64,000 bases of DNA. Origin: Methanolobus tindarius DSM 2278 (GTDB lineage Archaea > Halobacteriota > Methanosarcinia > Methanosarcinales > Methanosarcinaceae). Positions 18,793 to 26,278 of this stretch are shown here, piece after piece (the stretch's first letter is position 1; each line of letters begins with the position of its first letter). The position numbers were made by a program, and so were the translations under genes. The stretch spans positions 1,648,879 through 1,712,878 of the forward strand of contig NZ_AZAJ01000001.1 in assembly GCF_000504205.1 (NCBI RefSeq), in the 5' to 3' direction. The notes under the pieces are model-generated. The model made no database searches. It was not told the origin of the DNA and saw only the letters and a list, made by a program, of their open reading frames with translations.

Positions 18793-20385
18793 TCAATCAT
18801 CGCAGTTTTCTGCCTGTTTCTCTTCAATATAATTTCTCATGTCTTCAACTTCGGAGTCATAGGTTTCCTGATCCATAATACTATATTCTGAATTATATTC
18901 AGTAAATGTTTCTGCAATCAGGTCCAGCTTCTCAAGTAGCAGGTCATTGCAGTAGATTCCGTTTGCTATTTCCTCATAACGCTCTTTATAAAGTGCGCTG
19001 AAGTTCTCGTTTGCAAAGAACCTGTCTTTCAAGGCATTTTCAGCACTGTTTTGGCTGTTCATTTCCCCTCTTTCAACTCCTTCCCCGAGGTTACCATAAC
19101 CCTGCATTTCTCCGGGGAAGTTTCCACCAGCCATATCGCCCATATCGGGCATGTCTCCTATTTCACTCATTCTTTCAGGTCTGGTCAGATTCCCAAAATC
19201 TCCGTCTGGGGGAGTGAATTTGCTCTTGTTGTCCTGTTGCATCATGGATGCATTCATGTTCATACCTTCAGTTGGTGTGAAATTGATCATGTTCTCCATG
19301 TTCATTTCCTGCATGTCTCCCGGAGGAATACCTGTATTGTTTCCTCTGTCATCCATATTACCAAATGCACCGCCTCTTTGCATGTCACCCTGTCCCATCA
19401 TGGCACCAAAAGCAAGGTTCATATCCCACGCAAGGATCAGGAATTTTTCAGTACGCTGATCGTAATACAGGTAGTAATTACTGTTCATTCCAGAGAAAGA
19501 ATCTGAGTTCTCAACAAGGTCATTCACTGCCATCATGGTAATAAGCGCATCAATGTCAACCCAGTCACCCAGTTGTTCCTCAAATTCATCATCACTTGAT
19601 TCATCAATGAATTTCAGGAATGCAATAAAAGGTGCAAAGTCTTCTTCGTTCTTTTTTGTCTTTTGTTCGAAGTCTTCCATGTATTCTGTCTGGTCCTCAC
19701 CTTTATATGCAAATGTAACAGAATTGCCTGCTTTGTAAAGCACTCCTTCATAGTCATCGAAGTAATTTATAAGATAACTTTCATCTATATTTTCACAGAT
19801 AACATAATAGGCAGGATCAAGTTCTGAGATTTTTACACTTGCATAAGCCCATTCTGGCACTACTGCTCCGCTGATACTGTGTGTATAAAGTGCAAGCGGC
19901 TCTTCCAGGAGTGCATAACTGCTTCCTATACGAATGCACAGTTCCGTGATTCCCTGATAGCATTGACCATCAACGTACTCGTCAAATTTCACAAGGAAAG
20001 GGAGCTGCATACTATCCATCTGGTTGCTGCCTTGAAATGTGGTTTGAAGTGTTAATTGTCCTTTAAGGCGAATTCCTACATCTTCTACAGTGACACCGTC
20101 GATGGTAATGTCGGTTTTGAAATAGTCTTTCTCTCCTGTTTCTTCATAAGTTTTAAGCAGCGACTCATAGTCATCCCAGTCCATATCTACATCGATCTCG
20201 TGTATCATATTTTCACTGAAAAGATCCACATTATTTTCGATGTTGAATCTGGTCATTTTTGTCACATAACCTGAGTCTGTGGTGTAGGGGATTATCATTT
20301 CATCCCCGAAAAAATAGAGTGTGGAGGAGATAGATACGATTATCAGTATGATTATCCAGTAATTCCTCCGGAGTCTAATGTCCAT
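18793..20385 (-). CDS. CotH-kinase family exported protein with Met-rich insert
   Basis: The 530-residue protein has an N-terminal membrane anchor (about residues 8-26) and an extracytoplasmic CotH domain (about 55-330). The domain includes VGIRLKGQ and the signature FLILAWDMNLAFG, expected to bind ATP-Mg and phosphorylate protein. Residues 322-442 form a low-complexity Gly/Asp/Asn insert with 19 methionines. CotH then resumes to a helical C-terminus. It follows the DUF4956 gene by 18 nt on the same strand, a pairing common in bacteria, where a VTC-type polyphosphate polymerase gene often accompanies them; none is visible here. Confidence 0.83.
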   Translation of the reverse strand: MDIRLRRNYWIIILIIVSISSTLYFFGDEMIIPYTTDSGYVTKMTRFNIENNVDLFSENMIHEIDVDMDWDDYESLLKTYEETGEKDYFKTDITIDGVTVEDVGIRLKGQLTLQTTFQGSNQMDSMQLPFLVKFDEYVDGQCYQGITELCIRIGSSYALLEEPLALYTHSISGAVVPEWAYASVKISELDPAYYVICENIDESYLINYFDDYEGVLYKAGNSVTFAYKGEDQTEYMEDFEQKTKKNEEDFAPFIAFLKFIDESSDDEFEEQLGDWVDIDALITMMAVNDLVENSDSFSGMNSNYYLYYDQRTEKFLILAWDMNLAFGAMMGQGDMQRGGAFGNMDDRGNNTGIPPGDMQEMNMENMINFTPTEGMNMNASMMQQDNKSKFTPPDGDFGNLTRPERMSEIGDMPDMGDMAGGNFPGEMQGYGNLGEGVERGEMNSQNSAENALKDRFFANENFSALYKERYEEIANGIYCNDLLLEKLDLIAETFTEYNSEYSIMDQETYDSEVEDMRNYIEEKQAENCDD

Positions 20386-20403
20386 CTTCTCACCTCTTTG
20401 TGA

Positions 20404-21099
20404 TTAGAGGTCAGTGGTGTTGTATCCTGTAATCAGGAACACCTTCTGGTTTCCGTTCAGACTTTTGATGGATTCAATGAACTCGTGCTTGTTTATGTTT
20501 TTCTTGAGTATAACACTGTAGACAAGTTCAGTCACTGTTCCTGAGCGGACTGAATCTATTCCTATGAGATCCGCTGACTGTGTATATTTGACAAATATCT
20601 TGTCAAACAATTCCTCGAAATCAACGTTCTTGTCAAGCTGAATTTTCAGGACCTGGCTCATGGCCGGTCTTGCAAACCAATCAAATTCATACATGATAAA
20701 GATCATGGCGCCTATAACGCCGGTTGCGATGATTCCAAGCGTGTAGAATCTGGTACCCATTGCCATGCCGATTGCCATTGCAAAAAATATGAAACCGACA
20801 TCACGGGTTTCTTTTACTGCATTCCTGAAACGTATGATTGACAGTGCACCTACAAGTGAGAATGCGCGTGCAATGTTTGAGCCCACAATTAGCATGATAA
20901 CGTCTACTATCAGTCCCATCATGATGAGGGTGTGGACGTAACTCTGGGTGTAAGATGTTCCTTTGTGTGTGCGTTTGTACAGCCATCCTATAGCTGCCAA
21001 CAATATGAAACCTAAAACAAGACCCACAACAACGTCTGTGATTGTGAAGGTCCCGCTCAGGTCTTCAAAATTGAATAGACTTTCAATATCTATTGCCAT
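20404..21099 (-). CDS. DUF4956-family membrane protein
   Basis: The 231-residue protein has four hydrophobic membrane segments in the first 135 residues. The family core ARAFSLVGALSIIRFRNAVKETRDVGFIF-type region (about 78-106) is present, followed by a cytosolic ACT-like domain. DUF4956 proteins occur with CotH kinases and VTC polymerases; their molecular role is unknown. This is the first gene of the two-gene unit with CotH, and the 424-bp upstream region contains several inverted repeats. Confidence 0.83.
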   Translation of the reverse strand: MAIDIESLFNFEDLSGTFTITDVVVGLVLGFILLAAIGWLYKRTHKGTSYTQSYVHTLIMMGLIVDVIMLIVGSNIARAFSLVGALSIIRFRNAVKETRDVGFIFFAMAIGMAMGTRFYTLGIIATGVIGAMIFIMYEFDWFARPAMSQVLKIQLDKNVDFEELFDKIFVKYTQSADLIGIDSVRSGTVTELVYSVILKKNINKHEFIESIKSLNGNQKVFLITGYNTTDL

Positions 21100-23999: not shown

Positions 24000-24007
24000 G
24001 AATTATC
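24000..24007. repeat. 8-bp target-site duplication, left copy
   Basis: GAATTATC directly left of the element; the identical octamer flanks the right end at 25282-25289. Eight bp is the usual duplication size for ISL3-family insertion. Confidence 0.9.
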
Positions 24008-24033
24008 GGATCTCCTCAAGATTGAGTGGGTAA
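24008..24033. repeat. Left terminal inverted repeat of the IS
   Basis: Begins GGATCTCCTCAAG and ends GTGGGTAA. Compared with the inverted right end, 20 of 26 positions match. Confidence 0.88.
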
Positions 24034-24064
24034 TTTAATATTCTGTTCATCCAATCCATATTGG

Positions 24065-25273
24065 ATGGACGATAAACTCTTGATTCAAATGGCTCTGGGA
24101 ATAACCCCTCCATGGTATGTGAAAGACATTGATCTTAATGTTTCTAAGAAAAGAATGGATATTTATCTAGATTTTACCAAGGGAACGAAGTTCCCTTGCC
24201 CAGTTTGCAACAAACTGTGTGATCTCCATGATACCAAAGAAAAAGTATGGAGACACCTTGATTTCTTCCATCATGAAACATACATTCATGCACGAGTTCC
24301 CCGAACAAAGTGTGATGGAGATGATGTAAAACTTGTTGAAGTTCCATGGACAAGACAAAATACTGGATTTACATTATTTTTCGAAGCACTAATCGTTGCA
24401 ATGTCCAAAGAAATGAGTGTTTCTTCAATTGCTGAATTGATCAATATTCATGAAAATTCTGTATGGATAATTCTAGCTCATTATGTTGAAGAAGCCAGAG
24501 CAAAGATGGATCTCTCTGAGTTAGATACTATTGGAGTAGATGAAATATCTGTCAAAAAAGGTCACAGCTATGTGACCTTGTTCTATGATCTACATCAATC
24601 AAGAGTAATTCATATTGAAAATGGAAAGAAAAGAAGTGTTTTCAAGAACTTCAGGGAAGTTCTTTCCAGAAAAATAGACCCTGATAATATCAAGTATATT
24701 TCAATGGACATGTATCCTGCTTTTAGGGGTGGAGCAAGGGAATATTTCCCAAATGCTAAGATCGTTTACGATAAGTTCCATATTGTCAAAATGATGAATG
24801 ATGCAATTGATAAGGTTCGAAGAAAGGAGTATCAAACAAATAAAGATCTGGGTAAAACGAGATTCATGTGGTTGAAAAATCCTGAAAATCTATCGGATAG
24901 GGAAATAGCTAAGATTCGATCAATCAAAGATTTGGATACTAAAACAGCAAAAGCTTACAGATTTAAGCTTGGACTTCAACGTCTGTGGGATATAAAAAAT
25001 ATAGAGGTAGCGAGGGAATATCTTGACAAATGGCATTATTGGGGAACACATAGCAACATCAAGGAAATTATCACATTGGCCAAGATGATTAAAAGAAATT
25101 CTCATGGGATATTGGAATCAATCAAACAAGGTATCAGCAACGGTGTTGTTGAAGGATTGAACAACAAAATTAAAACTGCTTTTAAGAGATCATATGGATT
25201 GAAGACTGAGAAGTGTAGGAATACAATGATATTCTTGATGGCGGGTAAACTTCGTTTACCCACACGATGTTAA
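24065..25273 (+). CDS. ISL3-family transposase
   Basis: A 402-residue DDE transposase. The N-terminus has a zinc-finger-like CPVCNKLCDLHD, then a helix-turn-helix (VSSIAELINIHENSVWIIL). The DDE catalytic set is visible in GVDEISVKKGHSYVT, YISMDMYPAFRGGAREYFP and NGVVEGLNNKIKTAFKRSYG. ATG 24065 is chosen because the in-frame GTG at 24026 lies inside the terminal repeat. The ATG is buried in a perfect hairpin, CATCCAAT-CCAT-ATTGGATG (24048-24067), which could limit expression. The stop codon lies inside the right repeat. Confidence 0.93.
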   Translation: MDDKLLIQMALGITPPWYVKDIDLNVSKKRMDIYLDFTKGTKFPCPVCNKLCDLHDTKEKVWRHLDFFHHETYIHARVPRTKCDGDDVKLVEVPWTRQNTGFTLFFEALIVAMSKEMSVSSIAELINIHENSVWIILAHYVEEARAKMDLSELDTIGVDEISVKKGHSYVTLFYDLHQSRVIHIENGKKRSVFKNFREVLSRKIDPDNIKYISMDMYPAFRGGAREYFPNAKIVYDKFHIVKMMNDAIDKVRRKEYQTNKDLGKTRFMWLKNPENLSDREIAKIRSIKDLDTKTAKAYRFKLGLQRLWDIKNIEVAREYLDKWHYWGTHSNIKEIITLAKMIKRNSHGILESIKQGISNGVVEGLNNKIKTAFKRSYGLKTEKCRNTMIFLMAGKLRLPTRC

Positions 25274-25281
25274 AGAGAACC
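25256..25281. repeat. Right terminal inverted repeat of the IS
   Basis: Its reverse complement begins GGTTCTCTTTAAC and ends GTGGGTAA, matching the left end at 20 of 26 positions. It contains the transposase stop codon. Confidence 0.88.
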
Positions 25282-25289
25282 GAATTATC
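25282..25289. repeat. 8-bp target-site duplication, right copy
   Basis: GAATTATC, identical to 24000-24007. Deleting one copy plus the element restores the host reading frame. Confidence 0.9.
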
Positions 25290-26278
25290 TAAAAAAGACA
25301 CACTAAATTCAAACATTGAAGGATCAATTCCTCTCATGAAAATATCTACCATTTCTCTTTGTGCAAATGGTGCAACAACACTATTATTTTCAAGAGAAAT
25401 CTTTTCTTGACGTTCAACTTCATACTTTAGTTTGTTGCATATTATGCACTCAATAAAAAAGGATTTGAAAGAAGGAAATATCTCTTCTTCTCCAAAACCT
25501 GCTACAACTATACCAGAATATGAGTTATTTTTAATCTCAGGAAACTTTGAAAATACCCACGGAACAATTTCTTCCATTATTCCTATAGTTTCTTCATCAA
25601 GAGGAAACTCTTCAAAAACATCAGATATTATTTCTTTAATACTTGCTTCATATCTTTCAAGTATCATTTCTTCCAGATTGTCTGGAAATCCCGGACATTT
25701 TTTAGCCACTTCCCATAATTCATATTGAGAGTCCACAATTTCTGTCATAAGATCCATAAGCACATCTTCATCAACAACTTCTTCTTCATTGATTTTTTTC
25801 TGAATCTCAGCGAAGAGTTCTCCTTTGATTGAATTGAAATAGGCGTAAAGTTGAGCTTTAAACATTTGTTCCTGGATTTCTTGTGTAAACAGCATTTCAT
25901 TTTCATCCAAAAAATCAATGAAGTCATCTGCATACTCTTCCAGTGTATTGTATGTTTTATTTCCATTCTTTGCCCTGTATATTTTGATTATAGTCTCCCA
26001 GGGAATCCCCATAAAACTCGCATTTCCATAAATCATTATTCCAACAGGACATTTATCCGACAATGAGAACAGCTTGTTAGCTGATGCAAATATTTTGTCA
26101 CGAGAAAAGCCAGAAATAGTGACAGCACTATCAGCAGCTAGTGCAATCGCATCTTTATTCATTATTACTATTTCAGAAGTCATTTTTACTCTACAGTTAT
26201 CTTAAATTAAACAACTATAAATGTTTTTTTAATTAACTTCATCAAAAGAAATATAAGTCTTACCTTGATTTCTCATCA

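Follow-up and report, generated by a model that had tools for sequence, protein, structure and literature searches.

Members of the ISL3 family of insertion sequences share a GG..TCT consensus at their tips, and copy-out paste-in transposition is assumed for the family. One described member, ISAeme19, is 1304 nt long, has 19-bp imperfect ends, and is flanked by 8-bp direct repeats (PMC12554700). Searching the literature for such elements in Methanosarcina or Methanolobus yielded nothing of direct use. A second point of reference is provided by the proteasome-like homologues with multiple insertions (PMI) described by Fuchs, Alva and Lupas in 2021 (PMC8665760). In the portion of that article available to us, PPH and AAH are named as phage-borne proteasome homologues, and PMI are not.

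Here we describe a window of 64,000 nucleotides from the genome of Methanolobus tindarius DSM 2278 (G000; 3,151,883 bases, one contig). We conclude, with a probability of about 0.97, that a complete ISL3-family element was recently inserted into, and presumably inactivated, a 435-codon gene encoding a proteasome-like protein, and that the element is probably still mobile. The features are listed in Table 1.

Table 1. Features of the insertion, the interrupted gene, and the related loci.
Feature	Position	Strand	Basis or remark
Complete ISL3-family insertion sequence, 1274 bp	24008..25281	+	nine further genome copies with the same boundaries
Left terminal inverted repeat, 26 bp	24008..24033	+	20/26 versus the right end; kept in other copies
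Right terminal inverted repeat, 26 bp	25256..25281	-	the transposase frame ends within it
Target duplication, left copy GAATTATC	24000..24007	.	read directly; equals 25282-25289
Target duplication, right copy GAATTATC	25282..25289	.	read directly; equals 24000-24007
ISL3 transposase, 402 aa from ATG	24065..25273	+	PF01610, PF13542, PF14690; NF033550
Host gene, 5' part, codons 1-301, proteasome-like PHROG 5990	25282..26183	-	435-aa orthologue in G010; PHROG 5990 E 1.9e-74
Host gene, 3' part, conserved C-terminal motif and stop codon	23594..24007	-	comparison with the G010 orthologue
Element copies at putative rearrangement breakpoints, L032, L033, L034, L036, L037	G000 at 3.8 kb, 2.736, 2.698, 3.142 Mb, 240.6 kb		
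Host-family loci	L111-L175, L176-L178		

The element was flanked by a perfect pair of octamers, exactly in the range given by the first-pass annotation, and a recount of its ends, GGATCTCCTCAAGATTGAGTGGGTAA and GGTTCTCTTTAACATCGTGTGGGTAA, returned the same 20 matches in 26 positions. The flanking pair is beyond chance, as two random octamers in the G000 genome would agree with a probability of about 3e-5, and an A/T-rich pair with 1.7e-4. A search with the element as query retrieved ten full-length copies in G000, of which eight are 99.6-100% identical and the other two 91-93%. As the nine other copies begin and stop at identical positions, more than the duplication alone supports these boundaries. 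The ends are imperfect inverted repeats with tips of the GG..TCT type, and both were found at all ten copies. The target octamers (n=12, observed or reconstructed) contained 87.5% A/T, compared with 60% for the window. Two smaller symmetries were also noted. A perfect hairpin, GGGTAAAC-TTC-GTTTACCC at 25243-25261, overlaps the right end inside the coding frame; its stem is largely retained in most of the diverged copies, while the loop varies. A second inverted repeat, 8 bp long and perfect, spans the likely start codon (CATCCAAT-CCAT-ATTGGATG, 24048-24067); it had been considered as a block to translation, and was dropped as a family feature because it is absent from copies with 90-91% identity.

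The transposase frame is open from GTG 24026 to the stop codon at 25273 (415 aa), and the ATG at 24065 is the more likely start. The protein contained, in this order, a zinc ribbon, a helix-turn-helix, and a DDE domain (Pfam E values 3e-9, 7e-13, and 9e-67). The assignment to ISL3 was borne out by PF01610 (DDE_Tnp_ISL3, 9.1e-67), by PF13542 (HTH_Tnp_ISL3) and PF14690 (Zn_ribbon_ISL3), both above cut-off, and by the NCBIfam equivalog model NF033550 (transpos_ISL3; 1.6e-100, 336.7 bits versus a cut-off of 180). The residues D159, D215, and E363 (402-aa numbering), in the motifs GVDE, SMDM, and VVEGLN, were invariant in four relatives and likely represent the putative catalytic set, in agreement with the earlier description of one intact frame with a DDE set. 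A search for relatives of the transposase in viral contigs found none, and the comparison with solved structures by sequence gave nothing significant.

When the element and one octamer were removed in silico, the two flanks joined to a frame of 435 aa, as had been claimed from the window. The sister species G010 carries the same gene uninterrupted, and the two sequences aligned with 91% DNA identity straight through the junction, without a gap or frame change; the gap or frame change that the first-pass annotation had named as refuting its reading was thus not seen. The empty site in G010 contains a single octamer, GAGTTATC, and its one-base difference from GAATTATC is as expected for a divergence of 9%. 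Upstream, the gene neighbourhoods of G010 and the window are collinear for more than 8 kb; the stretch 18793-21099 beside the host gene differs between the two genomes. The host protein's relatives from viral contigs also align through the junction residue.

The host gene was given no name by Pfam or PADLOC, and of 27 genomes searched within the genus, only G000 and G010 contained it. A profile scan of viral contigs yielded 65 relatives, nearly all of full length and 29-42% identical, and PHROG 5990, a family of unknown function, was assigned to the G010 protein and to the two viral relatives tested. An AlphaFold model of a 42%-identical relative (40 sequences, pLDDT 88, pTM 0.84) showed a proteasome-beta fold with two helical insertions at about residues 101-210 and 289-362. 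Its alignment to proteasome beta with VIA-align gave a Z of 17.2 over 184 residues at 3.3 A, and put the second residue of the model opposite the first of the proteasome chain. D18 and K37 were invariant in the 40 sequences, and T2 was conserved in at least 90% of them. By fold and by the Thr/Asp/Lys set, the family is predicted to be of the proteasome-like Ntn hydrolase type, and may have protease or ligase activity. In another relative, from G058 (L053), the gene is broken where the frame shifts at about residue 307, not far from the insertion site, and its C-terminal motif continues in another frame.

The element lies after base 902 of the host gene and enters the second helical insertion, leaving a stump of 301 native residues and 32 residues read from the element. 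The C-terminal strands (397-412 in the model) are thereby removed, which makes a loss of function very likely as judged from the model. It is unlikely that the insertion is regulatory or neutral and that this stump of 333 aa retains function: its minus-strand frame does stay open through the end of the element, and Thr2, Asp18, and Lys37 are kept, but the stretch best conserved across the family, GGPIDVAVISKGDGFIW included, is gone, and in the relative's model this stretch makes up the final strands of the proteasome-like sandwich.

Next, we considered the age of the insertion. Against G010, the 5' part of the host gene has a dN/dS of 0.04 and the 3' part one of 0.047, and neither half shows a further lesion, as a young insertion would predict. 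The gene was thus under strong constraint for almost the entire period since the split from G010. The eight near-identical copies vary at five sites only, and the element in the window is identical over 1274 bp to three others (289 kb, 2.698 Mb, and 2.736 Mb), which places it in the youngest group. With four identical copies, and with strong purifying selection still visible in each half of the host gene, the insertion is judged to be young, as the first-pass annotation had proposed. These comparisons support an insertion that is recent relative to the split of the sister species. It is very improbable that the insertion is instead old, fixed, and immobile, and owes its youthful look to gene conversion that kept the copies alike. 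Conversion is made plausible by octamers that are shared crosswise between other copies (see below) and imply that copies recombine; on the other hand, the octamers of the window copy are perfect, its frame and ends are intact, the constraint is not relaxed in either half of the host gene, and a genome with 91% identity has the empty site. The element is probably still mobile, and the insertion is possibly polymorphic in the population.

The proposed course of events is as follows. The putative DDE transposase would have recognised both 26-bp ends and joined the element to a staggered cut of 8 bp in an A/T-rich target, and gap repair would have produced the duplication of GAATTATC. The element would thereby have landed in codon 301 of the 435-codon gene on the opposite strand, and the gene would have been inactivated when the C-terminal strands that complete the fold were severed. 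The insertion itself is an ordinary, textbook event, and represents a recent natural knock-out and a strain-typing marker.

Further copies were compared within the genome and the genus. Clean 8-bp duplications flank four other copies in G000 (L035, L038, L039, and L040). Copies with 90-93% identity were found in two relatives of the genus, five in G001 and two in G003, together with fragments, and 8-bp target duplications were seen in these genomes as well (L042, L045, and L046). In addition, G000 contains a 216-bp element with ISL3-like ends and a perfect 8-bp duplication, ATGATTTT (L110:593-808; G000:C1:2246592-2246807); it is too short for a transposase and is a MITE-like relative. An element of about 100 bp with both ISL3-like ends, another MITE-like derivative, was observed in G010 (L107; G010:C1 around 465394).

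With respect to REARRANGEMENTS at the other copies, the left and right octamers differ at 5 of the 10 copies in G000, and several of these octamers recur crosswise. The right octamer of the 2.736-Mb copy equals the left octamer of the 240.6-kb copy (AAAAATGT), the right octamer of the latter equals the left octamer of the 2.698-Mb copy (GTTTTGCT), and the left octamer of the 3.8-kb copy equals the right octamer of the 3.142-Mb copy (TTATTATT); by chance, 90 pairs would be expected to yield about 0.015 matches of this kind. The older arrangement at these sites is confirmed by relatives. In G001, G005, G010, G022, and G040, the left flank of the 2.698-Mb copy lies next to the right flank of the 240.6-kb copy, and the alignment with G005 passes through their junction. 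In G022, the left flank of the 240.6-kb copy is continuous with the 2.736-Mb copy's right flank, via an apparent terminator hairpin of the gene adjoining the insertion. A distance of 34-35 kb separates the latter flank from the homologue of the 289-kb site in G004, G005, G017, and G024. When the TTATTATT flanks are rejoined, a frame regains its start immediately behind another gene. The same sign was seen in G001, in which two copies have the octamer TTAATTGT in common (L041/L043).

These results suggest that copies of the element served as breakpoints of chromosome rearrangement. The simplest reading is that homologous recombination between inverted copies led to a large inversion and to one or more smaller ones; a crosswise misassembly of the identical repeats, which would look much the same, is less likely. 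The left octamer of the 3.142-Mb copy, the right octamer of the 3.8-kb copy, and both inner ends of a 36.7-kb segment are without a clear partner, and therefore the full history of rearrangement must be longer. The window copy, which has matching octamers and flanks collinear with G010, is not part of the rearrangement. That the element was joined to the window flanks by an assembly artefact has a negligible chance of being true: eight near-identical repeats of 1274 bp do assemble poorly, and misjoins could partly explain the crosswise octamers at five other copies, but the agreement of the window octamers and the collinearity of both flanks with G010 are not expected from a misjoin. The sister copies thus appear as a record of large rearrangements of a methanogen chromosome.

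The 36.7-kb segment (G000:C1:2698997-2735710; L096-L098) is situated between two identical copies in direct orientation, and could therefore be lost by one recombination. Truncated frames lie at its ends, by eye a caspase-like protein and a membrane protein, and the likeness of its end octamers, AAAAAGAA and AAAAAGAG, may be due to chance. A captured plasmid was considered and rejected, as many frames look chromosomal by eye and the genes cut at the ends do not rejoin. Also by eye, a near-copy of the membrane-protein frame at 20404-21099, which is part of the variable stretch next to the host gene, adjoins the 2.736-Mb copy (L098, chromosome around 2738429-2739872).

The phage context of the host family was also inspected. 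In the Javan85 prophage record, the PHROG 5990 gene is the last gene and lies beside the lysis genes; in a Stenotrophomonas phage, it adjoins the lysis genes on the opposite strand; and in a Streptococcus satellite phage, it is the second-last gene. Cargo genes for lysogenic conversion or defence typically occupy positions of this kind. By analogy of position, the family is a candidate for a defence or lysogenic-conversion enzyme. A broader proposal, that large proteasome-like enzymes with an N-terminal nucleophile are carried by phages as lysogenic-conversion or anti-phage cargo, and that the archaeal copy was recently switched off by the element, is tentative and rather doubtful. The disrupted gene family, phage-borne and unstudied, is a more interesting lead than the insertion, and the natural knock-out together with the intact gene of the sister species offers a ready-made comparison.

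In comparison with known systems, the sister copies resemble cases of IS-mediated chromosome rearrangement in their crosswise octamers and in breaks of gene order exactly at the element ends; unlike in established cases, the events were reconstructed here from sequence alone, and an assembly error is possible. The host family resembles PMI in its proteasome-beta fold and the conserved Thr2, Asp18, and Lys37, and, going by the description in the available portion of the article, the placing of its helical insertions is similar to that in PMI-3 and PMI-4 (PMC8665760). In contrast to PMI as described there, the PHROG 5990 family was found in prophages and satellite phages. The element itself shares with the ISL3 family a single transposase with zinc ribbon, helix-turn-helix, and ISL3 DDE domain, imperfect inverted ends, a duplication of 8 bp, and a length of about 1.3 kb, whereas it differs in that it resides in an archaeal lineage, with its nearest copies, at 90-93% DNA identity, in other genomes of the genus.
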